Notes under the pieces: model-generated | Databases searched by the model: none | What the model was told of the DNA's origin: nothing | Seen by the model: the letters and a program-made list of their open reading frames with translations, nothing else | Program-made: the position numbers and the translations under genes | Assembly (NCBI GenBank): GCA_963681505.1 | Contig: OY811991.1 | Location: 5,132,556-5,196,555 of the forward strand | Direction: 5' to 3' | Length of the DNA: 64,000 nucleotides | Source: Eunapius fragilis | Lineage: Eukaryota > Porifera > Demospongiae > Spongillida > Spongillidae | Shown here: in pieces, positions 17,754 through 61,502 of the stretch | How positions within the stretch are numbered: the first letter of the stretch is position 1 | Layout: each line of letters opens with the position of its first letter

Positions 17754-17920
17754 CCTTTTTTTTTTACACCTTCCAAACCTTTTTTTGTGCTAAATTTCAT
17801 GCATGTTTTTCCAATATAAGGGTGTTTTACAGCCATAATTTTAAAAAGGCTATTATTACATGTAAGAAAAATACAGAACACCAAAAAAAAACAATGTTGT
17901 GATTGCATGTGTGTGTGGAT

Positions 17921-19678: not shown

Positions 19679-19828
19679 TACAACGCACTAGCTAGTAACT
19701 TCAACAAGGAAATGAGGGGCCGGCCAATGGTTAATTATTACTCTGTAATTAATATTAAGTTCCGGTCGCGGGCAAAACATAAATCCGTTATGGCTTATCT
19801 ATGTCAATGATTGTCCCAAGAGTGGACA
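19679..19828. promoter_or_regulatory. Bidirectional promoter between carboxypeptidase and SGSM
   Basis: Only 150 bp separate the two start codons, which point away from each other, so both promoters and 5' UTRs must fit here. The interval holds a CCAAT box (GGCCAATGG, about 19722-19730) and an ETS-like TTCCGG at about 19760, and has no TATA box. The right-arm copy (61344-61502) keeps these motifs but has a short insertion (TTTCTATAG) next to the carboxypeptidase side. Confidence 0.6.
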
Positions 19829-21183
19829 ATGGACTCCACGCATTTCGAATCGCTCGTCAACCGTTGCAAGCAAGAGGTAAGTTGGTTTCATGGGGCTGGA
19901 GATGCAAAATAAATCATACACCGCGATCGTGTCCCACACATTATGCGTGCATATGTTTGTGCGCCTATGCGTACATTCGAGAGGCTTTCGGGTGCATCCA
20001 AGCAGCTAGCGGTCATAGTCGTTATATTACTATATGCAATGTCGGTACGCAACGGAACGTTAGTTATTTAGAGGGACATCTTCAAGGGGTTATGGACTGT
20101 CCTGTTATTAATAATAGCACTTGTATTGTAGAGGTAGTGGGAAGTTAAAATCCTCACCATCCCTCCTCCTCCCTTTCCCCTCCGTACAGTCCAAACAAAT
20201 CATTGAGGCAGGCGTAGCCTCTAAGATTCATTGGAGTCACTCGAAGTTTTCCACGTTCTGTGGTGAGCGGGGGACATATGGTTTACATGTGCATGTATAA
20301 ACCATGCTATGGGGCATATGAATCAACTTTGATACGAAAGTGGTAACTACGATGCTACAACCATCTTACCATACCTAATGTCTCTTTTCTCTCCGCTACA
20401 TTGCCACCACTATATCACCCCATGACCCCCCCCCCCCCCCCCCCCCCCTCAACTGATGAGTAGACGTGGTTGAGGAAATCCTCTCCTGTGGGACGAAGAA
20501 ACGGTACCAAGCCTCCCGATCCAAGCCCCTCCCACCATCAGGGAAGATACTGCATGACCTTGGCAAGAGGGTCAGGGAAGCCGAAGAAGTGTACACCACC
20601 AGCTTCACGCAGCAGGCCAACGGACGTCCCGACTATGCCCACATGCAGGGCAGCGCCCCCACCGAGCGGAGGATCATCTGGGTCAGGGTGGCCATGGTGG
20701 AGGGAAAGCTGAAGGCCATCGTCGATGCCATAGCAACTAACGCTGGGTGAGTAGTATGTTGTGATGGTCGGGGGGGGGGGGGGGGGTCAGAGGTGGGAGT
20801 GCTGAGCAGGTTAAGAGGGTGGGAATGGAGGTCGGGAAAAGACGGGTGAAAGGGGCTTGGAGAGGGGGTTGAAGGAAGGATGTTTTGTTATGTACACTGA
20901 CATCTTGTTTACAGCTTGTACTATGTGGAACATTCAATCATGAGACACCCAGTGTATGGGGATATCTTCTGTACACTGTTAGGTAAACCAAACCATGTAA
21001 TGAGCACTTGTATGCATGCTTGTGCGTGTTTGTGGTAGTTACTCACCTTTGATTAACTCTGTGGCAGACGGCCCCTGCTCTCTTCGATTCAGTCGGCTCA
21101 AATCAGTGGATACTTCCTTTCTGTCGCCTTCACCTATGGAGATTGTCAAGCGACACTCTCCGTAAGTATGCATATATGTGCTT

Positions 21184-21252
<69 letters not shown>

Positions 21253-27200: not shown

Positions 27201-30200
27201 GGTTCATCCTCACCAGAGAGCATGCAGGACATCAGTGTTGCCTCCAGTAAACCAGGATCCCTGGCAAGGTGTGATGGTAAAGGGATGGAGTGAGGGTGAG
27301 GACTTTGGGCACATGTGGGGGACAATTAACACAGGTATCTTTGATGTGTAGAGAGTAATCTCCTAAGAGGGTGTGTTGGCCATGCAAGGCCAGTATGTAA
27401 TTATGAGACTATGTAAGGGGACAGACCCATAGGAGGTGGGCCCATAGGAGCTGGGCCCATAGGAGATAGGCCCATAGGAGGTAGGCCCAAATGTAAGGAG
27501 ACAGGACCATAGGAGATAGGCCCATAGGAGATAGGCCCATAGAAGGTAGGCCATAGGAGATAGGCCCATATGTAAGGAGACAGGACCATTGGAGATAGGC
27601 CCATAGGAGATAGGCCCATAGGAGATAGGCCCATATGTAAGGAGACAGGACCATAGGAGATAGGCCCATAGGAGATAGGCCCATAGAAGGTAAGGTAGGA
27701 AAACAGGACCATAGGAGATAGGTTCATATGTAAGGAGTGTTTTTTCTGCTATACTTTCTTCAGAAAGGATGTTTCCAGAGGTATATGTTTGCTTTTATTA
27801 GAATAGCAATGAAGCCATTTATGTCATTTGTCCTTTTATGGTGTATCAAGGTGTTTAATTGGGTGCTAAGGAGTTACATGATGTGGTGCTGGGTGTTATA
27901 CGTTGTGCTGAAGTGTTATTTTGGAGTGAAGGTATAATATGGTGTTAGGTGTTCTATATGGGTGCTAAGGTGGTGTTAGGGTGCTATGGTGGCGTTATGG
28001 GTGCTAAGGTGGTATTATGGGTGCTAAGGTGGTGTTAGGGGTGCTAAAGTGTTCTATATGGGTGCTAAGGTGGTGTTAGGGGTGCTAAGGTGTTCTATAT
28101 GGGTGCTAAGGTGGTGTTAGGGGTGCTAAGGTGTTCTATATGGGTGCTAAGGTGGTGTTAGGGTGCTAAGGTGGCGTTATGGGTGCTAAGGTGGCATTAT
28201 GGGTGCTAAGGTGGCGTTATGGGTGCTAAGGTGGTGTTAGGTCTGCTAAGGTGGTGTTAGGGTGCTAAGGTGGTGTTAGGGCACTAAAGTGGTGTTAGGT
28301 GTGCTGAGGTGGTGTTAGAAGTGTAGGGGTGCTAAGGTGGTGTTAGGGTGCTAAGGTGGTGTTAGGTCTGCTAAGGTGGTGTTAGATCTGCTAAGGTGGT
28401 GTTAGGGTGCTAAGGTGGTGTTAGGTCTGCTAAGGTGGTGTTAGGTCTGCTAAGGTGGTGTTAGGGTGCTAAGGTGGTGTTAGGGTGCTAAGGTGGTGTT
28501 AGGTCTGCTAAGGTGGTGTTAGGTCTGCTAAGGTGGTGTTAGGGCACTAAAGTGGTGTTAGGTGTGCTGAGGTGGTGTTAGAAGTGTAGGGGTGCTAAGG
28601 TGGTGTTAGGGTGCTAAGGTGGTGTTAGGTCTGCTAAGGTGGTGTTAGGGTGCTAAGGTGGTGTTAGGGTGCTAAGGTGGTGTTAGGGTGCTAAGGTGGT
28701 GTTAGGGTGCTAAGGTGGTGTTAGGGTGCTAAGGTGGTGTTAGGTCTGCTAAGGTGGTGTTAGGGCACTAAGGTGGTGTTAGAAGTGTAGGGGTGCTAAG
28801 GTGGTGTTGGGGGTGCTAATGTGGTGTTAGGGTGTTATGGGTGCTAAGGTGGTGTTAGGGTGCTAAAGTGGTGTTAGGGTGCTAAGATGGTGTTAGGGGT
28901 GCTAAGGTGGTGTTAGGGGTGCTAAGGTGGTGTTAGGTGTGTGGCATGGTACTTTCAGGGAATGAGGGCTGGTGTGGGGGGCTGGTATGGGGGCTGGTTG
29001 CATATGTCTGGTATGGACTGGAGTCATGACTGAGTTGGTATTTCATTACAGGAAGGATTGGGAGAAATTCCAAACTAAGGTTTCCAGGCAGCTGCTGGCG
29101 AGATATTTCTATGGCTGTGAGCATTCCATTGGTGGAGTGTGTATCCATTTTATCTCCTCCCCTTCTCCCTCCCCACCCATTCACATCAGGGTGGTCCTAT
29201 TGTCGCCATGTGCACAATATGAAGAAGAGGTTGTCCCATATGATTAACACTAACGAGGTGGTTACCATGGAGACTCAAAATGGGCTGGATGAAACCACAT
29301 GGCTACAGTTCCTGCAGCGTGTAAGAGACCTTTGCACCCCCTCCCACATAGTGGAGTTAATGCTATTCATGATGAGCATGTGGGGAGGGAAATTTGAGGT
29401 CTGGGAACCCACCTTTGAGGTCTGAGAACCCCATGGAAGCTCTTCTCCCGAAGAGACTTATACAACATATCAGGTGGTTGATTAATGATAGGAAAGGGGG
29501 GAGGGGGGGGAAGAGGGGGAGATTGCTCCTCCCCAGGCCTGTCTCTAATGCTTTACTTAACTCCTCTGCTCCCCTGTTCAGAGAACACAGTGGAGCGACA
29601 TTCTGAGGGCTGTATATGCGGGGGGAGTAGACCCCACCCTCCGACCAAAGGTAATACCATACTGCAGTGCAGAGGCCATAGTTAATGCCTGTATCCATCC
29701 CCCCAATGTTGGGTATTGAATCAGAGAAACATGTGTGCACTAAAGCAGTTTGAAACTTTAACAGCACTGGTACTCCCACCCTACAAGTGTTACATACTTC
29801 TGCACATACACACAAGACTTGCGCGCACATGTGGTCCCCCATCTTCCCCTCCCCTCCTCCTCACCTCAACTTCTCCCTCCTCCCTCCTCCTCACCTTACC
29901 TCCTCCTTCCCTCCTCTCCTCCTCTCTCCCTCCCTCCCTCCCCTCCTCCCCTTACCTCCTCCCTCCCCTCACCTCCCCTTCTCTTCATTCCCCTTCTGTA
30001 ACCTGTAGGTATGGCCACACCTTCTTGGTCTCTTCCCCTCTGATGGCAATGAAGCTGACAGCTCTGCAGTTCACAAGCACTGTGTAACTGACTACTCCCT
30101 CATCCTGGACCAATGGAAGCCAATCGATGAACTCTACCAGTCACGCAGACACACAGACTCAGTCAAGGCGTGGAGGCGTGTCCTCCGTGGTGGGGGCGGG

Positions 30201-33200: not shown

Positions 33201-34238
33201 GAGGTCACCTGGGCTGCAAGAGCTTTGGTATCTAAGCACTTTGAGGAGTTCTTTGCCTTGGCCATCATGAATCAGTACAAGTGAGGTCCTTTCCTTCCCC
33301 CCCCACCCCCCTTTCAACTCCTTACCTCTACTTTCAAGGAACGTCATCATGGATGCTCGCATGGATCCCAGTGATATTGTCAACCTTTTCACATGTAAGT
33401 GTGTTCTAAATGATCCTGCCTTCCCATGCGTGAATGCTGCTACCTTTTTTAAATGCATTACGTGTTATCTTTTATTTCGGCGGATACATAAACCTTGTTT
33501 TTGAGTGGTTATGTAAGGATGAACTAATCAGCTGATACACCGTAACAGGGATATAATAAACATTTATTCCCTTCAAAGATTCAGAGCCATTGATATACAG
33601 AAGATGCATGTTTCTTGATACGTGAGGCTACACAATTAAGCTAGTGTACATATTATCACCAAAACAACTACCCCCAAGTACTAAATGAAATCTTTTATTG
33701 ATTTCCTTAGGCAGTGATCAATCGAATTTATTCCCTTACTTACGGCTCTGAATCTACCATTATAAGACACCTAGTTAACTTTGTTAATAATTCAGCTAAT
33801 TAATCATTTTGCAAATAATGTCCCTATGGACTGGGGACTAGTGTGCTGTCATGCACTGCATGTCTCATCCGGTCATTGGGTATAATAAGGTGTATCATTG
33901 GGTATAGCCATGTTGTGTCATTGGGTATAGCCATGTTGTGTCATTGGGTATAGCCATGTTGTGTCATTGGGTATAGCCATGTTGTGTCATTGGGTATAGC
34001 CATGGTGTGTCATTGGGTATAGCCATGTTGTGTCATTGGGTATAGCCATGTTGTGTCATTGGGTATAGTAAGGTGTGTTTTGTAGCCAATACTTGTGCAG
34101 GAGTCACATGTAGATAATGGCCACACCTCTCTCTCACTAGCTCTGGCTGATAAGAAAGTCCTGAGATGTTTGGAGATACTGAGGTCAGCACAGAGTACCA
34201 TCGCTGACATGCAGAAGGCATTGTCAAAAAGAGATTAG
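19829..34238 (+). CDS. SGSM: Small G-protein signalling modulator (RUN + TBC domains), 22 exons
   Basis: SGSM1/2 proteins bind Rab/Rap GTPases and act as Rab GAPs in trafficking. Exons: 19829-19876, 20190-20262, 20464-20746, 20915-20982, 21068-21161, 21293-21311 (19 bp), 21986-22087, 22370-22491, 23176-23249, 26391-26690, 27157-27268, 29052-29131, 29190-29320, 29582-29650, 30009-30850, 31358-31408, 32060-32142, 32510-32619, 32943-33039, 33169-33280, 33339-33394, 34141-34238. They sum to 3024 nt, a clean frame of 1007 residues, close to vertebrate SGSM2. Exons 1-6 form the RUN domain ([40 protein letters not shown]). Exons 7-10 carry the SGSM mid-region ([41 protein letters not shown]). Exons 13-21 form the TBC domain with VWPHLLG, the arginine finger IDKDIPR and the glutamine finger [14 protein letters not shown], so GAP activity is likely. 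A 280-residue exon 15 adds a repeat-rich acidic insert. Confidence 0.93.
21187..21251. repeat. (TG)n microsatellite, SGSM intron 5
   Basis: About 32 TG dinucleotides. The right-arm counterpart (59875-59967) is about 30 bp longer, so this is a real length difference between the arms. Confidence 0.9.
21370..21640. repeat. CT-rich minisatellite, SGSM intron 6
   Basis: CTCCCTCCCCTCCCTCCTCT-type units. The right-arm counterpart (about 59595-59755) is roughly 110 bp shorter. Confidence 0.9.
22135..22350. repeat. CACACT/CACTCA-rich simple repeat, SGSM intron 7
   Basis: Impure CA/CACT repeats; markedly shorter in the right arm (about 58985-59115). Confidence 0.85.
23276..26114. repeat. 26-bp minisatellite, about 109 copies, SGSM intron 9
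   Basis: Unit CACTACCACCATCACTACTC plus ACTC(A/C)C, period 26. Units come in two main types, A or C at one position, interspersed without a simple order. There is one unit with a short deletion near 23895 and one point variant near 24074. Since 26 is not a multiple of 3 and the unit lacks stops, all three forward frames are open for about 1000 codons and read the same 26-residue His/Tyr/Pro repeat. The array is inside an intron: exon 23176-23249 and exon 26391-26690 splice cleanly across it. Confidence 0.97.
27020..27150. repeat. Polypyrimidine minisatellite before SGSM exon 11
   Basis: CCCTCCCCCTGCCTCCCCTC-type repeats that run directly into the acceptor CTGTAG of the exon starting at 27157. 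Confidence 0.9.
27416..27735. repeat. 15-bp minisatellite, SGSM intron 11
   Basis: About 20 copies of GGCCCATAGGAGATA, some joined by TGTAAGGAGACAGGACC. Reverse-strand frames (MGLSPMG-type) are open only because of the 15-bp period. Confidence 0.9.
27930..28940. repeat. 19-bp minisatellite, SGSM intron 11
   Basis: About 50 copies of GTGCTAAGGTGGTGTTAGG with higher-order variants (TCTGCTAAGG and GAAGTGTAGGG types). With the 15-bp array it makes up about three quarters of the intron. Confidence 0.92.
29835..29998. repeat. CT-rich tract before SGSM exon 15
   Basis: CCTCCTCCCTCACCT-type pyrimidine tract ending just before the acceptor ACCTGTAG (exon starts 30009). Confidence 0.8.
30291..30390. 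repeat. 30-bp coding repeat in SGSM exon 15
   Basis: Just over three units encoding [10 protein letters not shown] in frame. It sits inside the TBC region between the VWPHLLG motif and the arginine-finger motif. Confidence 0.85.
30873..31198. mobile_element. ~326-bp MITE with CACAGGGAAAA termini, SGSM intron 15
   Basis: Long inverted repeats of about 140 bp each. Left end CATAGGAAAAAGTTATAAAC (one base decayed), right end GTTTATAACTTTTCCCTGTG. The arms share CCAGCCTGGATTTTT, GGCTGGTTTTTAACAAAA and ACCATCCTGGGATTGA. GGTGGTGG flanks both ends, compatible with an 8-bp target duplication, but the right flank is itself a GGT repeat. Its termini match those of 3024-3196. Non-coding. It begins 22 bp after the exon 15 donor. 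Confidence 0.8.
31200..31242. repeat. (GGT)n microsatellite
   Basis: About 14 GGT triplets abutting the right end of the MITE, perhaps expanded from its target site. Confidence 0.9.
31495..31690. repeat. GGTTAAGA-type degenerate repeat, SGSM intron 16
   Basis: Many imperfect copies of AGAGGGTTAAGGGGTTA. Resembles telomere-like GGTTAA strings but is too irregular to be an interstitial telomere. Confidence 0.7.
32760..32940. repeat. CT-rich minisatellite before SGSM exon 19
   Basis: Units of CCCCTCCCCTCTCTTCTCCC lead straight into the acceptor TGCTCAG (exon starts 32943). Confidence 0.9.
33890..34075. repeat. 23-bp minisatellite, SGSM intron 21
   Basis: About eight copies of CATTGGGTATAGCCATGTTG plus TGT, ending about 65 bp before the last coding exon. 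Confidence 0.9.
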
Positions 34239-34614
34239 CACTTCTTCACAAAGCAGCGCTCTCTATTCAGAGTTTTATTGTTTTTAAATTTGTGCAATGC
34301 AATATTTTATTTAATGATGGCGTGTTAATGCTACTGGTAGTTTTGATAGGACCAGCTTCCTAGAAGACTTGCCACTCCCCCTCCCTCCCCAACCTCAAAG
34401 GGATGTGGGTGGAGCCATGACACACTGTACCCTCCCTCTCCAGTTCTAATACATCTGGGACAGGTTAGTAATGAACGCATCTGTTACAGACTTGTAGACA
34501 CAATCATTGAGACACAAATAATGACGGGGAGGTTGGAGGGAGGAAGAGGTGACAGTATGAGTGCCTCTGAAGTGGTGTGTGAAGTACAAAGTGCACAGAA
34601 TGGCTTAGTAGACT
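34239..34614. other. Shared 3' intergenic space of SGSM and the sulfotransferase locus
   Basis: The genes run tail to tail with 376 bp between stop codons, so both 3' UTRs lie here. No AATAAA was spotted on the SGSM strand; no gene or repeat seen. Confidence 0.6.
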
Positions 34615-34777
34615 TCAACCTTTGCCGTCGGCGGGGAATTTTGGGTACCCCAACTCCTTCAGCATGTCACACTCCTCCCATATCTTCTCCAAGACGGGGA
34701 GAGGGATACTGGTACGCCATGTGTCCAGGGAATCAGTGTTGACTGGCTTCTTCACCTGATTGGTTGAAGGTTCCAAA
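34615..34777 (-). CDS. TPST: Tyrosylprotein sulfotransferase: common C-terminal exon
   Basis: After an acceptor TTCGTTATGCAG (reverse strand) this exon reads LEPSTNQVKKPVNTDSLDTW, then a helix and KELGYPKFPADGKG before TGA. It aligns with the C-terminus of animal TPSTs (IERSTDQVIKPVN ... LGY), a segment that helps shape the PAPS and substrate sites. The first base completes a split codon, so only a phase-2 donor fits. All three upstream catalytic exons (A, B, C) end in exactly that phase and at the homologous codon. No second copy of this exon is seen between 34.8 and 41 kb, so it is apparently shared. It encodes 53 residues plus the split codon. Confidence 0.88.
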
Positions 34778-35458
34778 CTGCATAACGAAACAGAAGCATA
34801 CACGTAATGTGAGAAGAGTCATAGAGGAGATGATGTCATAGTCTAGGAGATGATATCATAGGAGATGATGTCATAGAGGAGATGATGGATTAAAAGAGCT
34901 GCTGGTGGGACAGTAATACACATAGAGGGTGCATTATATAGAAGCACTTGGCATGGGCGTGATGACACGATTACACATACATGATGCAAGCACAGCAGCT
35001 AGTCATTACAACACATGTACCATGCACAGCCAAAGGTTGTGTGTGTGTGTGTGTGTGTTATAAAACCATGCATCATAAAATTTGAACACAGATGAATTCA
35101 GCACTCCCACCTCTTTCACTATTTCAAGAGTTAATATAACAGCATAAGGAGATATAATGCTACATTTTGTGGTAGCAACATCATTCATGTTATGCTCCTA
35201 TCATTTGTTACGTGAGGAGGGATTTAAACTTTATTAAATCACAAGCTTCCGCGCGCACGTGGTAGAGGTCAAACACTGCCCCCAATGATGGCAAATGGCG
35301 TATGCGGTAATGGTATTCACGCGTCAAATCCCCGACTTCGCCCCGGGGGTTGGGGGGTGTCTCATGTGACAATGATAGCCCCATCATTATGCATACCCCC
35401 CAAACGCTCGCTATCGACATCGTAAGTAACTACTGTAGAAAAAAAAAAAAACGCTTAC

Positions 35459-36249
35459 TCCGAAAGCGAGACCTCGGATCCTATGAGCTCGTGATGTCGG
35501 AGGACGTCATCATGCCAAGGTATGTCCAAGAAGCGGAGTACCTCCTTCATCTGCCCCGAAGGGTCCCGCACTAGTTCCTCGTAGAACACGGTCATGCACT
35601 TGTCGGCTAGCTGCGAGCATTGTTTGACAGTCTCGTTTACCAAATTGTTCCACGCCTGGGCAATGTGAAAGCTGTCATTAAAAACGGTACTCAACCTGTC
35701 CGCGACGGAACGGGCCACGGCTCGACCGTCTCGGATCATGAACACGAACTTCGACGCGGCGAATAACCTCTCGAGCGTGTGCAGCTCCTGCAGGAGGGGT
35801 CCCTTGTAGCACAGATACTTGGCGCCGCTGGTTCCGCGTCCGGCGACGATTTTGGTTACGAAGGCCCTCGTGGCTCGCGCCAACACGCGGTACGGCACTC
35901 CCGTGCTCTCGAAGAAACGACGGCCCGCCTCGGACCCTATCGTTCCGCGGTACAACGCTAGCATTTGGTGTAGGGCCTGGCACTCTCTCGTGCAGCGGAT
36001 GTTTGCGTGCCCATCCAGCATCGCCCTGAAGAGAGTCGTCCCGCTTCCAGGGTGCCCGCCTATGAAGATGATCGCCGGGGACGAAAGCGAACGCGGGTTC
36101 GCTGCGGCAAGTTCGGCCTCGTCCAGCTCTAAGCAGAGATAAGGAGACTTCGGCCTGCTCAGGAGGTAAACGCTGACTGCGACACAGAGGAAGAACAGAG
36201 CTTCGCGCCGCTCTAACGAGGCGAAACACGAGATGGCCAGCTGTCTCAT
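35459..36249 (-). CDS. TPST: Tyrosylprotein sulfotransferase variable exon A (divergent active site)
   Basis: Encodes 263 residues ending at a phase-2 donor (TCG GA|GTAAGC). Joined to the common exon it gives a ~317-residue type II Golgi-type protein. ATG at 36249, short cytosolic segment, TM anchor LFFLCVAVSVYLL at 18-30, then the sulfotransferase fold. The 5'-phosphosulfate loop is GGHPGSGTT (64-72) instead of GGxPRSGTT, so the conserved Arg is Gly68. The RCGEET motif, which carries the proposed catalytic Glu of TPST, is RCTREC. The CNKDP motif is CYKGP and keeps the Lys. The 3'-phosphate region FVFMIRDGRA is present. The last ~50 codons are nearly identical to exon B, while the rest is far more distant. 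It may have changed specificity or be catalytically weak; it looks intact, not a pseudogene. Confidence 0.85.
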
Positions 36250-36392
36250 CTTCCTACAATTAATCAGCGCCCGCGCGATTATTTTTTTTTGAATTAAGAA
36301 CACATACACACACGTCACAGTGACACACACATACACACACTCACAAACACATACACAAACACGTCATAGTGACATCTATACACACAATGTCA

Positions 36393-36398
<6 letters not shown>

Positions 36399-36460
<62 letters not shown>
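36399..36460. repeat. (CA)n microsatellite between sulfotransferase exons A and B
   Basis: Perfect CA run preceded by CACATACACAC/CGTCATAGTGACA pieces. It differs in length and purity in the right arm (about 44917-44974). Confidence 0.9.
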
Positions 36461-36464
<4 letters not shown>

Positions 36465-36729
36465 AACCGTTAATCTACTATATAATTTCCATTCAAGTAT
36501 CTATGACATTTCATGCCGCTTTTAAATAACAATGCGGTGCGAAGGGGAAAAAAAAAGCAGACGGTATATATCACAGGTACATTTTGATTGATTTTATAGA
36601 TGACTGGGCATACTTGCGAAAGAATCCTGTTCAATCACGCGGTGATTTTACAAGTAATTATATCATCTATGAAATCAAGAATTGATTCGCGGTCTTTTTT
36701 CACTGTGTATATATGTATCGGTGACTTAC

Positions 36730-37565
36730 TTCGAGAGGATGACCTCGGATCCTATGAGCTCGTGATGTCGGAGGACGTCATCATGCCAAGGTATGTCCAA
36801 GAAGCGGAGTACCTCCTTCATCTGTCCCGAAGGGTCCCGCACCAGTTTCTCGTAGAACACGGTCATGCACTTGTCGAGAAGCTGCGAGCAGTCCTCGGTC
36901 ATCGTCTGCATCAATTTGTTCCAGAACAGCGCCGTGCTAAGATAGTCCGTTATATTCACACCAGATATCGTTATGTTTCTGCTCACGATCGAATGTGTCA
37001 CTCCCCTACCGTCTCGTACCATGAGGAGAAACTTGGACTTTGGAAACATCCTCGCCAGTGATTTCATCTCTTGCAAGAGGAGCGGATCCTTGTTGCACAG
37101 GTACTTGGCGGGAGCGCCGTGACCCGCGATTATTTTGGCGGTAAACGCACGCGTAGCTTGAAACACGGCTTTAGTCTCTGAATCATCCGGACTCTCCGCA
37201 CCTTGTCGTTCCAGCCGCGCCAAATTGACCATCCAATTGTACAAAGCAAACACCCTAGGAATAATATGGGTCTCCTCCCCGCAGCGAATGTCCGGGTGTG
37301 CGTCCAGCAGTACCCTGGCGAGCGTCGTTCCGCTCCGCGGACACCCGCCCACAAAGATGACCATCTGCGATATAAGCGACTTCGTTTTCGAGTTGTAGCT
37401 GTCGTTGGTGGTGAGTGTTGCATCATCTTCCTGCAACGCGCAGACGTAAGGCACCTGCAGCCGGTTCAGAAAGAAAATGTTGAATGCGACGGACAAGGCG
37501 AAAGCGATCTTAAGGTGCTGAGGTAACGTCATTATGGCGAAATGCATTTTGTTGCAATCTTCCAA
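36730..37565 (-). CDS. TPST: Tyrosylprotein sulfotransferase variable exon B
   Basis: Transfers sulfate from PAPS to protein tyrosines in the trans-Golgi if it acts like its family. Encodes 278 residues ending at a phase-2 donor (TCG AA|GTAAGT); with the common exon about 332 residues. TM anchor IAFALSVAFNIFFL at about 20-33. It keeps the full TPST signature: GGCPRSGTTLARVLLDAHPD (Arg77), RCGEET (Glu97/98), KYLCNKDP, SKFLLMVRDGRGVTHS, and WNK before the C-terminal block CMTVFYEKLVRDP. ATG at 37565 chosen; an ATG at 37547 is possible. The part from about 37234 downstream has an inverted copy at 44137-44644. Confidence 0.88.
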
Positions 37566-40135
37566 TGGCTTTTTAAAATTATGGATGCGGGCGGGATCGG
37601 GGTAATAAAAATTCGTGTAAACCGCTTACATGTAGTGAAAAGGGTAACCATTTGGAAATAAGCCGATTTGTAGCGGCGGCGCTGCGTGAACTTGCATGCA
37701 AACACGTACACACACCACACACAAGCACATAACTGACATGTCCACTACAGGTAAGCAAGCTGCTATCTCATTGTGGGGGTGCATGCACAGAAAGCAATGA
37801 CATGCAGCTGTTGGGTGCGTGCTTTTCCATTGGTGGGGCCCAGCCACCACTTATTGGCTATCTAGCTGATGTTCCTCTGGTCTCTATAGGGATTAGTTCA
37901 AGGCCTGGATATGGTACAACATGCAGATAGCCAGGCAGGGGATGCAGGGGGGATTTTTGTCGGACGGGAGGGCTCCGGGAAAGAAGGGAGTTAAACTGTA
38001 TGTTCTCTAGCTGGTGTGCTGGTGTGGATAGAAATTAAGGAATCAACAGTGGAGCACATGACTGTCTAACAGCCTCCACCTGGAAATGGTCTAGGACCTG
38101 CCATAATATAATTATTATATTGACAGAGACAGCAAAGGCTGCATGACAGAGGCAACAAAGGCTGCAGGTGAATATAATATCAACCAGAAGAAAAGAAATT
38201 CAACACCCTAAAAATCAAGTTGCTTTATTAGGGCAAAGCGGTCCCCAGACCAACGCTCGTCCACTTTAAACTCTTCACCGTAATTCCGTATGCATATAAA
38301 GTACTTCAGTGGCTGCCACGGTGTCACGAATGACATAGCATCCTCCATCTTGATCGCAAATGAGCTGTAGCTGAATTAATTTGCTCGAGACATGCGCACA
38401 TACCAGAGTGTGGTGCATCCTCCATTGTTCCATTGAACAGCGCCTACATATCTTTTTCTCTAAGACCTGCACTATCTTATCTTTACCTTTCTTCCCCCAT
38501 CGTAGCTACACGCTCGGACAGGTCCCCAGACTAGCGCTCGCCCGCTTTAAACCGCTTCGCTGACAGTATTTGTAAGCGTGGTTGTTAATTAACTTGAAAT
38601 GAGCGGTCATATAATCATCTCGATTTAGTGTAGCCAAACGTTTCATGTGCCTTGACATGAAACTTCTGGCTATGTAATTGATTCATTAGATTACTTAATG
38701 TTTGTCATTGGTCCGTGCTAGTACACTAAGAGAATATTACAATCCACTTGGAGCCGGTGTACTGTAACAAGTCCAGTACAGTACTGTAGTATGTCCAGTA
38801 CAGTACTGTAACAAGTGGAGTATGTCCAGTACAGTACTGTAACAAGCAGAGTATGTCCAGTACAGTACTGTAACAAGTGGAGTATGTCCAGTACAGTACT
38901 GTAACAAGTGGAGTATGTCCAGTACAGTACTGTGACAAGTGGAGTATGTCCAGTACAGTACTGTAACAAGTGGAGTATGTCCAGTACAGTACTGTGACAA
39001 GTGGAGTATGTCCAGTACAGTACTGTGACAAGCGGAGTATGTCCAGTACAGTACTGTAACATTAAAATGCCATGGAGTATGTTAGCAAGCTGCAAAATAT
39101 TCACTTTTGATGGAATAGTTTAGTTACAGCGGTAGAGATACTGCGTCTCTCCGTTTTATAGTTATATGCGCTGTTCCATTTTAGCAATATACCATGCATG
39201 CATCGATCCAACATTTATCGATGCCTCATGCTGCGTCTTACGACGTATTATATAATTGCTGGACAATGGACTTTACCAGACCCAGAAGACGCCATTTTCG
39301 GATCCAAACAACATGACGTAACGTATATGAACGGTTAAATAGTTTACGTGCATCGACAAATCATGTGTGTGCAGCTAGTATATGCGAAGGTTTTTAAAGA
39401 AACCTTACTGCCTTCTAGTATTTGCCATGCTAACTCCTTTATAGCCATCTGCAATTGCTCATCTCAGTGACTTAATATACGGAGGGTGCAAGTAAGTTCC
39501 CCTGGTGAACATCTGTTATGATGTGTTAACATGGTTGTTTTGTTTGGTGACTCTAAAGCGCGTCTCTCCGTCTAAGGGAGCACCGCTCATTGTTATATGC
39601 ATGCCCTTTTGCGTACAATGATTATCTACTTTTGTGTATTGTCTTATTGTCAAGTGCCAAGTATATATTGTGCACTGTTTTTCTGTACATGATTCCCCCC
39701 CCCCCCCCCCCCCATTCTTGAGTGCTATCATTTCCTACTGTTTGTTTGCTATCTGATCTCATACATTCCGCGTCCAACGTTGAGGAACATGACAACGTCC
39801 TAAGTGCAGCGTGTAGGTTCCATTCTATCTACCGTTGCAGGGGTAGGCCAAAATCGATCTATTTTAAAAATTGTGCTTTCAACTGATGGATCCACAAATT
39901 AAGAATTAAAAAACTGTTGAACCACACACAATCGCTAATCATGGTAAAACTCATACATAAAATGGGACTGACCATAAGGTGAGTGTGGGGAGGAAATTGA
40001 GTATTAATTAACCATTTGTGAGCATGCAATATTACATCCCACACAGCACATTGCCCATATTATCTTAGCAGACATGCAGAATGCAACACATACATGTACA
40101 CAGTAGTTAAAATTATTACTTTAAAACTAACTAAC
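37566..40135. other. Spacer between sulfotransferase exons B and C
   Basis: No coding sequence recognised and no copy of the C-terminal exon. It includes two direct copies of a ~40-bp element (GGTCCCCAGACYARCGCTCG, about 38240 and 38521), the 31-bp repeat array at 38760-39060 and a ~17-base C run at about 39694. If exon C is spliced to the common exon this is intron, plus the promoter of exon B. Confidence 0.55.
38760..39060. repeat. 31-bp minisatellite with palindromic core
   Basis: About nine copies of GTCCAGTACAGTACTGTAAC plus AAGTGGAGTAT. Each unit contains the perfect palindrome ACAGTACTGT. Reverse-strand open frames here are repeat artefacts. Confidence 0.9.
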
Positions 40136-40956
40136 CTGGAGACGGGAACTTCAGACCCTACGAACTCGTGATGTCGGAGGACGTTATCATGCCAAGGTAT
40201 GTCCACGAAGCGGAGTACCTCCTTCATCTGTCCCGAAGGGTCACGCACCAGTTTCTCGTAGAACACGGTCATGCACTTGTCGGGAAGTTGCGAGCAGTCC
40301 TCGGTCATCGTCTGCATCACTTTGTTCCAGAACAGCGCCGTACTAAGGTAGTTCTTCGTATCCACACCAGATATCGTTATGTTCCTGCTCACGATCGAAT
40401 GTGTCACTCCCCTACCGTCTCGTACCATGAGGAGGAACTTGGACTTTGGAAACATCCTCGCCAGGTTTTTCATGTGTTGCAGGAGAAGCGGATCCTTGTT
40501 ACACAGGTACTTGGCGGGAGCCCCGTGGCCGATAATGATCTCGCTCACAAAGGCCCCCATGGCTCGATCCATCAGTTCCTCGGACACTCCTGCCCCATCG
40601 AGGCGCTGATGTTCGAGCGGGGACTGGAACATCTTGCTCCCGATCATCATGAACCGTGGGAGGACCCGGGTCTCCTCCCCGCAGCGAATGTCCGGGTGCG
40701 CGTCCAGCATCGCCCTGGCGAGCGTCGTTCCGCTCCGCGGACTCCCGCCCACGAAGATCACCAACTGCGAACGCAGACCGATGTCGCCGTCGTCGTCATC
40801 CCGCTGTGACTCGCCCACAACTCCTGTCGCGAGCATAGCGTCTGCCAGACCCATAGGGTTGGCACAGTGGTAAGGTACCCTAAGTCTAATCACGAGGTAC
40901 ATGTTTGCCGCTACGCTCGCAAGGCAGACGAGGAGAACGGCCTTGTGCCTGACCAT
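40136..40956 (-). CDS. TPST: Tyrosylprotein sulfotransferase variable exon C
   Basis: Encodes 273 residues ending at a phase-2 donor (TCC AG|GTTAGT); with the common exon about 327 residues. Start at MVRHKAVLLVCLASVAANMY, where the TM anchor begins almost at once, as in TPST. Motifs: FVGGSPRSGTTLARAMLDAH, RCGEET, a TPST-like helix region (GVSEELMDRAMGAFVSEII), KYLCNKDP, SKFLLMVRDGRGVTHS, CMTVFYEKLVRDP. All expected catalytic positions are conserved, so this is the most canonical of the three. The frame is open further upstream to 41133 but would run through a hairpin and lose the N-terminal anchor, so I reject that start. It is present once only; the right arm stops before it. Confidence 0.88.
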
Positions 40957-41062
40957 CGAATCTAGATGTGAACTGTGGACCATGGGTCTGGGGCCGAGAA
41001 GCACGTAAACACGTAGTCTCGTGCCCGTACCCACAGCTGCGGGTTGGATTACGTCGCCGTAT

Positions 41063-41138
41063 GCTAGTTGGGCGTAGCCCAACCTTCGCGTATTGGCGGA
41101 TGCGCCAATACGCGAAGGTCGGGCTACGCCCAACTAGC
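41063..41138. repeat. Near-perfect 76-bp hairpin
   Basis: Arms 41063-41098 and 41103-41138 (36 bp each, one mismatch) around the loop GATG. The arm starts GCTAGTTGGGCGTAGCCC. It lies about 105 bp upstream of the exon C start codon, between the divergent sulfotransferase exon C and the lysozyme. Confidence 0.95.
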
Positions 41139-41428
41139 CGTATGCGCAAGCCCGAACTATCTCTACAGTTGTATAAAACAAGCTCACCATTAAAAAAAAA
41201 AAAAAATTTCTGGTCGCTTGCCCTTAACGGCCGTCTGTTTGGTCTAAAGTTTAGTTTGATCGTCTGCACTTTATATGAAGGGCCACGGTGAAACTGTGAT
41301 GTTTTCTCCATAAACTATAGGGCGTCATGCTGCTAGGTTTTAGTACTCTTGTGGAGGCGATCATCTACCGAGCTGGTGCTCACGCGCATGCGTAATCATC
41401 ACTATAGCGCGCGCCGTGGAGTGGGATG

Positions 41429-41489: not shown

Positions 41490-42417
41490 ATGGCCTCGCC
41501 TACTACTTCTACTCTCTTGCTGCTGCTGCTCACCCTCGGCATCGAGCACTCAACGGCACACTTCTTCAATATGTCAAACATAACTAGCGCGCCTGCCGCA
41601 GGAACCTACGGAGTCGATGTCTCCTCCCCAATAGACGAGAGCACCTTCTCCTGCCTCAAAAGCAATGGATTTACGTTTGCTATCGTTCGAGCCTACCAAA
41701 GCGACGGTTGGGGACTTCTCTTAACACGCTAGCTGACGTAACCTTGTGTAAAATATCATTCGCCAGGCGAACCCGACAAGAACGCTCCGGCCACCATCGC
41801 CAACGCAAGGGCCGCGGGTCTGCAGTATGTTGACGTGTACATGTTCCCATGCCCTAAGTGCTCTCAGTCTGCTTCGCAACAAGTAGCCGCGATGAGTAAG
41901 AGATTTATTCCGCTGTGTATATGTGTGCGAGCACGGGGGTGGATGGCGGCAAACATAAAATATTCTATCTACTTAACAGTGCAAAATCTCAAAGGTTCCA
42001 ATTATGGAATGTTGTGGTTGGATATTGAGGTAGGTTGATGCATCATGTGACCGCGAATAGTCACGTGTAATAACTATTTCACGCGTGGTGTATTTTGCAT
42101 TCGGTACAGGGCAGTCAATATTGGCTTGGATCTGCATCAGCAAATCAGCAATTTTTTGGAGAGCTCCTGACAGCTGCTCAGGTGAGCATTAATTGTAAGA
42201 GGGGGGAGGGGCATTATCCTTCAAACCTGGGCTTAATGATTTTTAATTTATATGCTCTTAAGAGAACCACACACACACACACACACACGTTTGTGGAACT
42301 GCAAATCATAAATTTATGCCAATGTGTTCACAACTGGTTAGTGGGTAGTTCTGTGTGAATACAACCACAAAGCAGATATCCAAGACAACCAACCCCTTAA
42401 GATGGCACGCATAATCA

Positions 42418-42448
<31 letters not shown>

Positions 42449-42898
42449 TACACACACACGCACACATCTATATGCAGTCATTAAACTAACTGACGTGCTC
42501 TCTAATCGGCATGTACGTACAACAAGGGTTAATAGCATCAGTTTGTCACCTTGGGACATGACTTAACAGGAGTTGACAGTGGAGATAATTATGAAAATAC
42601 CTATTTAATGAAGTACAGAATTATGACCAGTGGAACAGGTGTATGACATTTTCTCGCTAATGTTCAGTTTGGATGATACATATGAATAACAAAACATAAC
42701 CATAGTATTGTTGACTTATAACATGCCCAGTACTATGCACCAACACTTGTGTACTGCCTCTGCCTGTAGGCACACAAGTGTACTGGTGTGTACTCAAGTG
42801 AATCACAGTGGAGTGAAATATTTGGATCCAGCTACACTGGTGGATCAGCCCGTCCCCTCTGGTAACCCAAACCAAAGGCAACTGTTGTGGCTATTTTA

Positions 42899-42936
<38 letters not shown>

Positions 42937-43239
42937 CGTGTGTGTGTGTGTGTGTGTTTTTTTTGCCCAAAAGGTATGCACACTATGATAACAATCCATC
43001 GTTCAGCGATTTTTCTCCCTTCGGTGGGTGGTCAAAGCCTTCAATAAAGCAGTATGCTGGAGATGCAACTGAGTGTGGTAAGTATTGGGGGGAGGGGGGG
43101 TGTTGAAAAGGTGAAAACAGGTGGGTGGGTGAGTTTGTGGAGATGAGGAGGAATCTGAAGACTAGTTGAAGCAATGAGCTGTCTGTCACCTAAGCTAACC
43201 TCTATTTCAGGCGCTGATGTGGACACGAACTGGTATTGA
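41490..43239 (+). CDS. GH25 lysozyme, secreted, seven exons
   Basis: Muramidase family that cleaves bacterial peptidoglycan (N-acetylmuramyl bonds). Exons 41490-41706, 41767-41895, 41980-42029, 42110-42181, 42770-42861, 42974-43077 and 43211-43239 splice to 693 nt = 230 residues with stop. Signal peptide about 1-23 ([15 protein letters not shown]). The GH25 barrel starts at YGVDVSS (Asp43) and carries the catalytic pair in MLWLDIEGSQYW (Asp130, Glu132). Other family motifs are [41 protein letters not shown] and [20 protein letters not shown]. The CPKC and Cys pattern resembles the lysozymes of nematodes and amoebae. Complete, TATA promoter and poly(A) signal present. Likely a digestive or antibacterial enzyme. 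Confidence 0.93.
42903..42957. repeat. (TG)n microsatellite in lysozyme intron 5
   Basis: TG run broken by CGTGCG, directly before the T-rich acceptor tract of exon 6. Confidence 0.9.
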
Positions 43240-43936: not shown

Positions 43937-44136
43937 NNNNNNNNNNNNNNNNNNNNNNNNNNNNNNNNNNNNNNNNNNNNNNNNNNNNNNNNNNNNNNNN
44001 NNNNNNNNNNNNNNNNNNNNNNNNNNNNNNNNNNNNNNNNNNNNNNNNNNNNNNNNNNNNNNNNNNNNNNNNNNNNNNNNNNNNNNNNNNNNNNNNNNNN
44101 NNNNNNNNNNNNNNNNNNNNNNNNNNNNNNNNNNNN
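43937..44136. other. Assembly gap, exactly 200 N
   Basis: A round-number run of N is a scaffolding placeholder of unknown true length. The sequence to its right starts in the middle of a copy of sulfotransferase exon B in inverted orientation. Confidence 0.99.
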
Positions 44137-44644
44137 GGATGGTCAATTTGGCGCGGCTGGAACGACAAGGTGCGGAGAGTCCGGATGATTCAGAGACTAA
44201 AGCCGTGTTTTCAAGCTACGCGTGCGTTTACCGCCAAAATAATCGCGGGTCACGGCGCTCCCGCCAAGTACCTGTGCAACAAGGATCCGCTCCTCTTGCA
44301 AGAGATGAAATCACTGGCGAGGATGTTTCCAAAGTCCAAGTTTTCTCCTCATGGTACGAGACGGTAGGGGAGTGACACATTCGATCGTGAGCAGAAACAT
44401 AACGATATCTGGTGTGAATATAACGGACTATCTTAGCACGGCGCTGTTCTGGAACAAAATTGATGCAGACGATGACCGAGGACTGCTCGCAGCTTCTCGA
44501 CAAGTGCATGACCGTGTTCTACGAGAAACTGGTGCGGGACCCTTCGGGACAGATGAAGGAGGTACTCCGCTTCTTGGACATACCTTGGCATGATGACGTC
44601 CTCCGACATCACGAGCTCATAGGATCCGAGGTCATCCTCTCGAA
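44137..44644 (+). CDS. TPST: Partial copy of sulfotransferase exon B (right arm)
   Basis: Starts within exon B (WMVNLARLERQG) because of the gap and ends at the same phase-2 donor (AA|GTAAGT). At least two single-base indels (near 44213-44220 and 44343) and a change near 44458-44462 break the frame relative to the left copy. The pattern (indels, hardly any substitutions) suggests poor consensus at a contig end rather than gene decay. Confidence 0.75.
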
Positions 44645-44912
44645 GTAAGTCACCGATACATATATACACAGTGAAAAAAGACCGCGAATCAATTCTTGAT
44701 TTCATAGATGATATAATTACTTGTAAAATCACCGCGTGATTGAACAGGATTCTTTCGCAAGTATGCCCAGTCATCTATAAAATCAATCAAAATGTACCTG
44801 TGATATATACCGTCTGCTTTTTTTTTCCCCTTCGCACCGCATTGTTATTTAAAAGCGGCATGAAATGTCATAGATACTTGAATGGAAATTATATAGTAGA
44901 TTAACGGTTTAT

Positions 44913-44956
<44 letters not shown>

Positions 44957-45124
44957 TGTGTGTGTGTGTGTGTATGTGTGTGACATTGTGTGTATAGACC
45001 CGTCACTATGACGTGTTTGTGTATGTGTTTGTGAGTGTGTGTATGTGTGTGTCACTGTGACGTGTGTGTATGTGTTCTTAATTCAAAAAAAATAATCGCG
45101 CGGGCGCTGATTAATTGTAGGAAG

Positions 45125-45918
45125 ATGAGACAGCTGGCCATCTCGTGTTTCGCCTCGTTAGAGCGCGCGAAGCTCTGTTCTTCCTCTGTGTCGCAGTCAG
45201 CGTTTACCTCCTGAGCAGGCCGAAGTCTCCTTATCTCTGCTTAGAGCTGGACGAGGCCGAACTTCGCCGCAGCGAACCCGCGTTTCGCTTTCGTCCCCGG
45301 CGATCATCTTCATAGGCGGGGCACCCTGGAAGCGGGACGACTCTCTTCAGGGCGATGCTGGATGGGCACGCAAACATCCGCTGCACGAGAGAGTGCCAGG
45401 CCCTACACCAAATGCTAGGCGTTGTACCGCGGAACGATAGGGTCCGAGGCGGGCCGTCGTTTCTTCGAGAGCACGGGGAGTGCCGTACCGCGTGTTGGCG
45501 CGAGCCACGAGGGCCTCGTAACCAAAATCGTCGCCGGACGCGGAACCAGCGGCGCCAAGTATCTGTGCTACAAGGGACCCCTCCTGCAGGAGCTGCACAC
45601 GCTCGAGAGGTTATTCGCCGCGTCGAAGTTCGTGTTCATGATCCGAGACGGTCGAGCCGTGGCCCGTTCCGTCGCGGACAGGTTGAGTACCGTTTTTAAT
45701 GACAGCTTTCACATTGCCCAGGCGTGGAACAATTTGGTAAACGAGACTGTCAAACAATGCTCGCAGCTAGCCGACAAGTGCATGACCGTGTTCTACGAGG
45801 AACTAGTGGCGGGACCCTTCGGGCAGATGAAGGAGGTACTCCGCTTCTTGGACATACCTTGGCATGATGACGTCCTCCGACATCACGAGCTCATAGGATC
45901 CGAGGTCTCGCTTTCGGA
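45125..45918 (+). CDS. TPST: Copy of sulfotransferase exon A (right arm)
   Basis: Same ATG context (GAAGATGAGACAG) and same donor (GA|GTAAGC) as the left exon A, but several small indels between about 45165 and 45530 shift the frame. The stretch from about 45530 onward reads as in the left arm apart from an indel near 45808. Treated as a low-quality duplicate of the same exon. Confidence 0.75.
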
Positions 45919-46581
45919 GTAAGCGTTTTTTTTTTTTTCTACAGTAGTTACTTACGATGTCGATAGCGAGCGTTTGGGGGGTATGCATAATGATGGGGCT
46001 ATCATTGTCACATGAGACACCCCCCAACCCCCGGGGCGAAGTCGGGGATTTGACGCGTGAATACCATTACCGCATACGCCATTTTGCCATCATTGGGGGC
46101 AGTGTTTGACCTCTACCACGTGCGCGCGGGAAGCTTGTGATTTAATAAAGTTTAAATCCCTCCTCACGTAACAAATGATAGGAGCATAACATGAATGATG
46201 TTGCTACCACAAAATGTAGCATTATATCTCCTTATGCTGTTATATTAACTCTTGAAATAGTGAAAGAGGTGGAGTGCTGAATTCATCTGTGTTCAAATTT
46301 ATGATGCATGGTTTTATAACACACACACACACACACACTACATGTGTTGTAATGACTAGCTGCTGTGCTTGCATCATGTATGTGTAATCGTGTCATCACG
46401 CCCATGCCAAGTGCTTCTATATAATGCACCCTCTATGTGTATTACTGTCCCACCAGCAGCTCTTTTAATCCATCATCTCCTCTATGACATCATCTCCTAT
46501 GATATCATCTCCTAGGACTATGACATCATCTCCTCTATGACTCTTCTCACATTACGTGTATGCTTCTGTTTCGTTATGCAG

Positions 46582-46744
46582 TTTGGAACCTTCAACCAAT
46601 CAGGTGAAGAAGCCAGTCAACACTGATTCCCTGGACACATGGCGTACCAGTATCCCTCTCCCCGTCTTGGAGAAGATATGGGAGGAGTGTGACATGCTGA
46701 AGGAGTTGGGGTACCCAAAATTCCCCGCCGACGGCAAAGGTTGA
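46582..46744 (+). CDS. TPST: Copy of the sulfotransferase common C-terminal exon (right arm)
   Basis: Identical in translation to 34615-34777, with the same acceptor TTATGCAG and the same TGA. Order in this arm: partial B, A, common exon. Confidence 0.85.
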
Positions 46745-47122
46745 AGTCTACTAAGGCCATTCTGTGCACTTTGTACTTCACACACCACTTCAGAGGCACT
46801 CATACTGTCACCTCTTCCTCCCTCCAACCTCCCCGTCATTATTTGTGTCTCAATGATTGTGTCTACAAGTCTGTAACAGATGCGTTTCATTACTAACCTG
46901 TCCCAGATGTATTAGAACTGGAGAGGGAGGGTACAGTGTGTCATGGCTCCACCCACATCCCTTTGAGGTTGGGGAGGGAGGGGGAGTGGCAAGTCTTCTA
47001 GGAAGCTGGTCCTATCAAAACTACCAGTAGCATTAACACGCCATCATTAAATAAAATATTGCATTGCACAAATTTAAAAACAATAAAACTCTGAATAGAG
47101 AGCGCTGCTTTGTGAAGAAGTG

Positions 47123-50100
47123 CTAATCTCTTTTTGACAATGCCTTCTGCATGTCAGCGATGGTACTCTGTGCTGACCTCAGTATCTCCAAACATCTCAG
47201 GACTTTTCTTATCAGCCAGAGCTAGTGAGAGAGAGGTGTGGCATTATCTACATGTGACTCCTGCACAAGTATTGGCTACAAAACACACCTTACTATACCC
47301 AATGACACAACATGGCTATACCCAATGACACAACATGGCTATACCCAATGACACACCATGGCTATACCCAATGACACAACAGGGCTATACCCAATGACAC
47401 AACATGGCTATACCCAATGACAAACATGGCTATACCCAATGACACAACATGGCTATACCCAATGATACACCTTATTATACCCAATGACCGGATGAGACAT
47501 GCAGTGCATGACAGCACACTAGTCCCCAGTCCATAGGGACATTATTTGCAAAATGATTAATTAGCTGAATTATTAACAAAGTTAACTAGGTGTCTTATAA
47601 TGGTAGATTCAGAGCCGTAAGTAAGGGAATAAATTCGATTGATCACTGGCCTAAGGAAATCAATAAAAGATTTCATTTAGTACTTGGGGGTAGTTGTTTT
47701 GGTGATAATATGTACACTAGCTTAATTGTGTAGCCTCACGTATCAAGAAACATGCATCTTCTGTATATCAATGGCTCTGAATCTTTGAAGGGATAAATGT
47801 TTATTATATCCCTGTTACGGTGTATCAGCTGATTAGTTCATCCTTACATAACCACTCAAAAACAAGGTTTATGTATCCGCCGAAATAAAAGATAACACGT
47901 AATGCATTTAAAAAAGGTAGCAGCATTCACGCATGGGAAGGCAGGATCATTTAGAACACACTTACATGTGAAAAGGTTGACAATATCACTGGGATCCATG
48001 CGAGCATCCATGATGACGTTCCTTGAAAGTAGAGGTAAGGAGTTGAAAGGGGGTGGGGGGGGAAGGAAAGGACCTCACTTGTACTGATTCATGATGGCCA
48101 AGGCAAAGAACTCCTCAAAGTGCTTAGATACCAAAGCTCTTGCAGCCCAGGTGACCTCCCATAGACGAAAAACATCTTCATATTGAAATTCTAAGGATAT
48201 TTGACTAAATCACTTGATGAGCATAACATTCATATCTCAACACTAGGCCATAGTGAAGTATGCAGCCTGAAACACATCCCAAACCTACACCTTCCCTGGT
48301 ACCACACAATAGCCTGTACCTCTTTTAAAGCCCACTAGAAACCATCGGTAACAATAAAACAGGCTGTCACCCATTGGCTTCTCCTGAAGGTACTGAAAGA
48401 AATCTGGATCTGTCACCTGAGCAGAAGAGAGAGGGGAGGGGGAGAAGAGAGAGGGGAGGGGGGAGAAGAGAGAGGGGAGGGGGGAGAAGAGAGGGGAGGG
48501 GGAGAAGAGGGAGGGGAGGGGAAAGAAGAGAGGGGAGGGGAAGAGGGAGGGGAGGGGGAGAAGAGAGAGGGGAGGGGGGAGAAGAGGGAGGAGGCGAAAT
48601 GGAGAAACAATTATGAAGGCCCATGAATGAACCAAGGTTTACATTGCCTAACCTTAACCATATTTACTGTCCTTTCTCCCTCCCTTATCTCCCTACTTCA
48701 TTCACTCCTCCCCTCCCTTCCTCAGCACCCCCTCATACCTCCAGCAGTTCTCTCAGATTGGTCATTCTTGTGTTCATACCAACTTCAGGAGGAAATAGCT
48801 CCCTCTGTGTTGCCATCAGTTTCAAGTAGCAGCTGTAAGCAAGTGGCTCTGCAGAAGTGGATGAGAAACTTATAGTCCCTACAACAAAAAATTTTTCTAG
48901 TTTTTTTACTTTCTGTATTGTACTCAACAAAACACCTCATACTCACTGCACACCTCCCACATCACTGTCAAACCTTCCCACATACTGCACACCTCCCCAC
49001 ATAACTGCACACCTTCCCACATACTGCACACCTCCCCACATCACTGCACACCTTCCCACATCACACTGTCACATCACACCTCGCCACATCACATTGTTAT
49101 TTCACACTTCCCCACACCATCACAATCTCTTTACACTGTATCATCTCCTAAAGACTCACACTCCACTTTCAAGCCTTCTCTGTGCACCACAACCCCCTAC
49201 ACACACAACACTCACCCTCATCAAACACAACAAGAAGTGGTGCCAGGAGGTCACACATCCCTTGGGAGTACCCGTCGCTCATGTGAGTCCAGACATAGCT
49301 GAAGTGAGATGTGTGTGAGTGTGTGTGTGTGTGTGTGTGATACAAGGGAAGATGGATAGGTTAGATGAGGACAAGATGCACTACATTTCAAGTAATAAGT
49401 GTCCTACAACCACCCACAACCTCTCACAATCTCCTTCCTCCCCTCCTCCCCCCCCCCCCCCCCCCCCCTCTCTATAATGATGCAAGAATTGGGAGCACAT
49501 GTTTTTGATACCTTAGCATTACATTAATGGAGTACTTAGTTGTGCATGAACCTATCAAAGGTGCCTAAGAATGGCTTTGCACAGTATACAGTGCTAAGCA
49601 TCGGAGATTTTTAAAACATGTGTCCCAAATTCTTGCCAAATCTTGTTTGTAGGACCTCACAAACTTCATAACCACAAAATCCCTCTTAACCAATTAAACC
49701 CCATAACCCTTAACTCCTCATAACCCCATAATCTCTAACCCCCCATACTCTCTTAACCCCTCATAACCCTCTTAACCACTTAACCCTCTTAACCCTTAAC
49801 CCTCTTAGCTCCTTAACTCCTCTTGCCCCTTAACCCATCTTAACCCCTTAACCTCTCTTAACCTCTTATGAACACCAGTAAACAAATTTAACTGCTGCTG
49901 ACAAGGTTTTATGCCTAATAACAGGTTTAATTAATTGGCATAATAATGGTTACCTGACGATGATGTTCCGCAGTTTGTTGAGATTTCCATCAAGTTTAAA
50001 GTACCTGAAATTGGGGTGTGTAGGGGCGGGGCACGGGAGAGTGGGGCATGGCAGAGGTGGGTGGCATACGTCTTTCTAAATTCCAACATTTTTAACAATG

Positions 50101-59873: not shown

Positions 59874-59968
<95 letters not shown>

Positions 59969-61343: not shown

Positions 61344-61502
61344 TGTCCACTCTTGGGACAATCATTGACATAGATAAGCCATAACGAATTTATGTTTTGC
61401 CCGCGACCGGAACTTAATATTAATTACAGAGTAATAATTAACCATTGGCCGGCCCCTCATTTCCTTGTTGTTTCTATAGAAGTTACTAGCTAGTGCGTTG
61501 TA
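61344..61502. promoter_or_regulatory. Bidirectional promoter copy (right arm)
   Basis: Same CCAAT-containing intergenic region as 19679-19828, 159 bp here, with a short insertion near the carboxypeptidase start. Confidence 0.55.

Follow-up and report, generated by a model that had tools for sequence, protein, structure and literature searches.

Organization of the locus

The window analysed here is a stretch of 64,000 nucleotides of one genome, that of the freshwater sponge Eunapius fragilis (contig OY811991.1, positions 5,132,556 to 5,196,555). It contains on its minus strand a locus encoding proteins of the tyrosylprotein sulfotransferase (TPST) type. In the 5' to 3' direction the locus consists of three large homologous exons, C, B and A, followed by one short exon (CT) which ends with the stop codon; the positions of these and of the other features are listed in Table 1.

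The lengths of the large exons (821 nt for C, 818 nt for B counted from its first ATG and 791 nt for A) are each 2 modulo 3. Their donors (CCAG/GTTAGT, CGAA/GTAAGT and CGGA/GTAAGC) are in phase 2 and interrupt the homologous codon in all three cases. CT is preceded by TATGCAG and opens with the base missing from the interrupted codon. An earlier reading made from the sequence alone (the sequence-only reading) had described three large exons of the same orientation with lengths of 2 modulo 3 and GT donors at the homologous codon, as well as a single downstream exon that completes this codon and encodes the TPST tail. Re-reading of the sequence agrees with the former description, and in-silico splicing confirmed the latter: the spliced products C-CT, B-CT (from the ATG) and A-CT comprise 327, 326 and 317 residues, respectively. 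The start of exon B had been placed at 37565, which gave it a length of 836 nt, and this position has to be revised. It is occupied by a TTG codon in a frame that is open up to 37625, and the first ATG is found at 37547.

A membrane anchor had also been ascribed to each of the large exons. The maximal 19-residue Kyte-Doolittle hydropathy indicates a clear candidate anchor in C (2.11), but the segment is only borderline in B (1.56) and weak in A (1.36). In its structure, the tandem of homologous large exons on the same strand with matching donor phase corresponds to a multiple-variable-first-exon cluster. In agreement with this, a single constant exon lies downstream and private 3' exons were not found in this incomplete assembly, which holds only CT and a mirror copy of it.

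Table 1. Positions of the exons and other features of the TPST locus and of its inverted arm within the window.
Feature	Position	Strand	Remarks
Variable exon C	40136..40956	-	ATG, membrane anchor, TPST core; phase-2 donor 40135/40134
Variable exon B	36730..37547 (from first ATG)	-	borderline anchor, TPST core; phase-2 donor 36729/36728
Variable exon A	35459..36249	-	weak anchor, diverged TPST core, G at Arg79 equivalent; phase-2 donor 35458/35457
Constant exon CT	34615..34777	-	163 bases, stop codon, tail with Ser286 equivalent
Possible competing terminal exon	35230..35434	-	acceptor-like site, first base 35432; AATAAA starting at 35235
Two AATAAA signals	34274..34311	-	starts at 34311 and 34279; downstream of CT stop
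Assembly gap	43937..44136	.	200 N
B', partial mirror copy of B	44137..44644	+	single-base indels
A', mirror copy of A	45125..45918	+	single-base indels; limits set by hand from alignment
CT', mirror copy of CT	46582..46744	+	identical to CT

Relation to TPST and the catalytic residues

All three spliced products align to human TPST1 and TPST2 chains of known structure, and the alignments run across the exon junction into the tail. The best E values against these chains are 3.4e-80 for C, 2.2e-71 for B and 5.4e-51 for A. The Pfam family Sulfotransfer_3 is present in 3/3 products (the query for C was entered in this search without its second residue). The catalytic residues named for TPST1 in PMC5562738 are R79, E100, K159 and S286. 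Their equivalents were mapped by eye along the aligned 5wrj chain, with R79 set on the arginine of PRSGTT. C and B retain the equivalents of R79, E100 and K159. The equivalent of S286 is the serine of LEPSTNQV and is encoded in CT; hence CT is required for a complete active site, and B and C, which hold the other three residues, need it. By this mapping, the products C-CT and B-CT have four of the four catalytic residues. Exon A retains the E100 and K159 equivalents and carries glycine at the position of R79, so that A-CT has three of the four.

The equivalent of R102 is arginine in C, histidine in B and glutamine in A, and that of R106 is arginine in C and B and glutamine in A. The substrate-contacting R285 of TPST1 corresponds to proline in CT (mapped by eye). 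Thus the likeness to human TPST1 and TPST2, the two human isoforms, is seen as homology throughout the sulfotransferase core and tail, whereas the sponge products differ from them at R285, in B at R102 and in A at R79.

C-CT and B-CT are expected to act as TPSTs and to differ in the anchor, the stem and some of the substrate-contact positions, and A-CT is probably weak, altered or non-catalytic. The proposal of the sequence-only reading that the locus makes three sulfotransferases finds partial support in the anatomy, in the homology through the junction and in the open frames, but it is overstated for A, where the catalytic Arg79 equivalent is missing and the anchor is weak.

Open frames and probable sequence exchange among the variable exons

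Over the matched parts, identity to C amounts to 70% for B and to 49% for A. In the N-terminal parts the synonymous divergence (dS) is mostly high and exceeds the nonsynonymous one (dN), e.g. dS 1.79 and dN 0.69 for columns 1–40 of the B/C comparison. Neutral drift was simulated in 2,000 runs with substitutions only, indels and conversion being ignored. At 0.5 substitutions per site the stop-free share was 0 for A, 0 for B and 0.0005 for C; at 0.1 substitutions per site it was 0.065, 0.0715 and 0.12, respectively. It is unlikely that the frames of A, B and C would be open under neutral drift.

The identity of codons encoding the same residue is distributed unevenly along the exons. For the pair B/C, 100/109 such codons are identical in the best segment and 37/69 outside it, and for A/B the values are 48/51 and 44/84; neither excess was reached in 5000 shuffles. 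For A/C (33/36 in the best segment, 45/85 outside) 9 of the 5000 shuffles reached the observed value. These segments concentrate at the 3' ends of the variable exons, and the similarity among the exons ends a few bases beyond the donors. Because the same-residue codon identity sits at the 3' ends and the similarity stops just past the donors, the data point to homogenisation of the donor-proximal ends by gene conversion. For B/C, the longest-run test is weaker than that based on segments, as 225 of the 5000 shuffles matched the observed value. The GC content at third codon positions is inconsistent as a sign of conversion, since it goes from 0.743 to 0.711 in A, from 0.670 to 0.733 in B and from 0.741 to 0.667 in C.

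Search for other tails and other TPST genes

A whole-genome search with CT, either as DNA or as protein, gave two matches each, namely CT itself and the identical copy CT' of the mirror arm. The statement of the sequence-only reading that the locus has no other C-terminal exon is therefore incorrect as worded, although CT' lies on a strand unable to serve B or C. The search with the TPST core, in which eight candidates were scored, returned seven matches with E values up to 0.001, each of them within the locus or its mirror; no further TPST core or tail was found in the assembly by these searches. Translated search (tblastn) of 204 kb around the window recovered the same two tails, followed by a 28-residue stretch at 5487–5570 together with its mirror (E 0.027). 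This stretch was rejected as a tail as it is devoid of the S-T-x-Q motif. A motif scan likewise yielded these two tails and one further match at coordinate 75306, past the end of the window; the latter was rejected as well, as it continues unlike a TPST tail.

The family PF13469 has 14 matches in the genome, seven in the locus or mirror and seven elsewhere. Four of the latter (L028, L032, L033 and L034) were judged by eye to be sulfotransferase-like but not TPST; L029, L030 and L035 were left unjudged, since the longest frame printed for them was not the matching one. The assembly is reported to be 60.0% complete by BUSCO, with 32.1% missing, and to contain 802 gaps (PMC12616128). The failure to find a further TPST or tail is therefore a provisional result.

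Inverted mirror arm

The inverted duplicate of the locus begins directly after the 200-N gap. Among the listed pieces of inverted similarity, which are those longer than 700 bases, the sequence from 37234 down to about -55 kb pairs with that from 44137 up to about +120 kb. Within the window, the ~20 kb from 44137 to 64000 are an inverted near-copy of 17182–37234, which continues beyond the window end. A tandem repeat array of ~2.8 kb at 23280–26115 is reproduced in the mirrored arm with identical copy number and sequence.

The differences between the arms change with the distance from the gap. Nearest to it (34000–37234 on the left) there are 23 indels and nine listed substitutions, not counting the alignment edge row (136-base overhang at 34000); seven of the substitutions form one 12-base cluster resembling compensating indels and two lie in an AC repeat. 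The arms are identical over 23000–29999, and the alignment of 9480–21251 shows 110 mismatches over 11,828 columns (~1%). We take the right arm to be probably a misplaced haplotig whose end was left unpolished. It might instead be a genuine second TPST locus, B'-A'-CT', in a large palindrome, and the large extent of the inverted similarity would suit such an arrangement. We consider this unlikely: the arm starts exactly at the gap, the gap-proximal differences are nearly all single-base indels that give way to 7 kb of identity and then to ~1% substitutions, and curation of misjoins and of haplotypic duplications is described in the assembly report (PMC12616128). The pattern of gap-proximal indels followed by an identical stretch was also the reason to reject the mirror arm as a pseudogene or an independent allele. 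If the right arm is a misplaced haplotig, the frameshifts in A' say nothing about A, the order B'-A'-CT' is not an independent confirmation of the order in the left arm, and genes of the right arm would appear falsely duplicated in an annotation.

Splice signals and the most probable arrangement

Splice sites were scored with approximate matrices for the 668 GTs and 564 AGs between 34000 and 43900. Only 8 and 5 of the GTs score at least as high as the donors of C and B, respectively. The acceptor of CT has 8.5 bits, and 7/564 AGs score at least equal. No strong acceptor is present within ~300 bases of the start of B, and an acceptor-like site of 7.1 bits precedes C at 40987. The best candidate acceptor near the ATG of A (GTAG/GAAGATG at 36253) has 2.3 bits and is not favoured. 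It is likely that A, B and C are first exons, although acceptor-like sites exist at 38138 (for B) and 40987. TATA-like words were found at the locus; they are no evidence of promoters.

Taken as a whole, the locus is probably a multiple-variable-first-exon TPST locus, in which C, B and A serve as alternative first coding exons joined to one CT. Transcription would start before C, B or A, the choice of promoter thus picking the first coding exon. Each variable exon would provide the start codon, the hydrophobic segment near the N-terminus and the greater part of the sulfotransferase core; its donor would then be joined to CT, from which the conserved C-terminal segment and the catalytic serine (Ser286 equivalent) would come. 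Gene conversion would keep the donor-proximal 3' parts of the variable exons alike. We infer the promoters, the splicing and the activity of the three forms from the anatomy, frames, homology, residues and homogenised 3' ends described above. RNA reads of Eunapius fragilis have been reported (run ERR11641155, PMC12616128).

Alternative explanations

Several observations weigh against this arrangement. The donor of A is only 45th of the 668 GTs. The highest-scoring acceptor-like site in the locus is not that of CT but the one at 35432 (14.4 vs 8.5 bits), and splicing of B or C to it would add seven residues followed by a stop (by eye), i.e. result in a truncated protein. Further acceptor-like sites occur inside exon A (36176 and 36128, 9.6 and 8.6 bits) and upstream of B (38138, 8.5 bits). 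In one window of the A/C comparison (columns 121–160) dN equals dS (0.68 and 0.68). Finally, with the BUSCO and gap figures quoted above, other TPST genes or tails could be unassembled. It is conceivable in view of the site at 35432, which is followed by AATAAA at 35235, that B and C use a terminal exon located there and yield truncated non-catalytic or regulatory forms with a short tail. However, the score of this site comes mainly from a T run, the matrix used is approximate, the site lies just 26 bases past the donor of A, and the product would be devoid of the Ser286 equivalent; we hold this explanation to be quite improbable.

Another explanation, that CT is joined only to A (or to one exon) and the remaining exons are decaying tandem copies without tails, would agree with the location of A nearest to CT and with the lack of a tail exon after B or C. 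It is hardly compatible with the fact that the Arg79, Glu100 and Lys159 equivalents are kept by B and C and not by A. Moreover, all the frames are open despite the large N-terminal divergence, the donors of B and C outscore that of A, and the assembly would then hold no canonical TPST. This explanation is also unlikely. Less probable still is that C, B and A are parts of separate complete genes, the tail exons of which are absent from the assembly. The incompleteness of the latter and the location of C at 3 kb from a gap would allow it, but the segment C-B-A-CT is gap-free (the nearest gaps are ~64 kb left of the window and at 43937) and only ~480 bases separate B from A.

Neighbouring features

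A near-perfect hairpin with a 36-base stem and a 4-base loop (z-score -13.7) is located at 41050–41155, ~100–200 bases before the start of exon C. A genome search for like hairpins gave at least 80 matches, most of them on contig C2 (both strands counted; 40/172 candidates scored), and the hairpin is like a dispersed element of the miniature inverted-repeat transposable element type. Between C and B, a tandem array at 38788–39061 consists of 8.8 copies of a 31-base unit with 96% matches. Exon-like frames at 41490–43106 on the plus strand, beside exon C, are lysozyme-like by eye, with no Pfam family in the pieces tried; the Pfam scan of four stretches neighbouring the TPST locus gave 0 families in each.

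Elsewhere in the genome, contig C9 carries, at about 9.625 and 9.674 Mb, COX1-like pieces that contain TGA, TAG and TAA in frame; these are probably nuclear copies of mitochondrial DNA. The mitochondrial contig C24, 28,504 bases long, contains a COX1 frame with nine TGA codons and, besides an atp9-like frame (by eye), 25 tRNA genes. Mitochondrial features of this type are typical of demosponges.

Comparison with known variable/constant clusters and implications

On the best reading, the layout of the sponge locus is closest to that of vertebrate GCNT2 (IGnT), in a new gene family. The human, mouse and rat GCNT2 genes encode a glycan-modifying transferase and have three similar first exons, each with an N-terminal transmembrane segment, as well as shared constant exons (PMC1885805). 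GCNT2 belongs to another enzyme family and has two constant exons instead of one. A promoter for each exon and separate splicing have been demonstrated for GCNT2. Prevalent gene conversion is not reported for GCNT2 in PMC1885805, in contrast to its marked traces in the sponge.

UGT1 and UGT2A likewise have tandem variable first exons for the N-terminal half and shared 3' constant exons, but these are four or five in number and the products are UDP-glucuronosyltransferases; the same paper describes the division into variable and constant exons seen in UGT1, GCNT2 and UGT2A as vertebrate-specific (PMC1885805). Clustered protocadherins of fugu resemble the sponge locus in their large variable exons, constant exons and a 3' homogenisation ascribed to gene conversion (PMC1852091). 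They differ as adhesion proteins with many variable exons, whose constant part is cytoplasmic and does not contribute to an active site. Among invertebrates, the sDscam genes of chelicerates have variable 5' cassettes in tandem, with alternative promoters and a constant part, but their cassettes consist of two or four exons and encode immunoglobulin proteins (PMC4835542). In the part of the literature covered by our search, neither a TPST with alternative first exons nor a TPST paper on sponges was found, and no variable-first-exon arrangement was reported for a TPST or for a sponge.

A more far-reaching scenario, which we put forward tentatively and hold to be unlikely to apply in full, is that the sponge evolved, separately from the vertebrates, a variable-first-exon enzyme cluster with a catalytic residue in the shared exon. 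All tyrosine sulfation would then come from one locus by promoter choice, A would be a retained pseudoenzyme competing or pairing with the active forms, and conversion would keep the splice-proximal parts alike. If the proposed use of C, B and A as alternative first exons is true, the variable/constant design would be shown to occur also outside the Bilateria and in an enzyme that modifies proteins, with a catalytic residue in the constant part. The locus would also represent a small system, with three variable exons and one constant exon, in which the effects of promoter choice and gene conversion on such loci could be followed.

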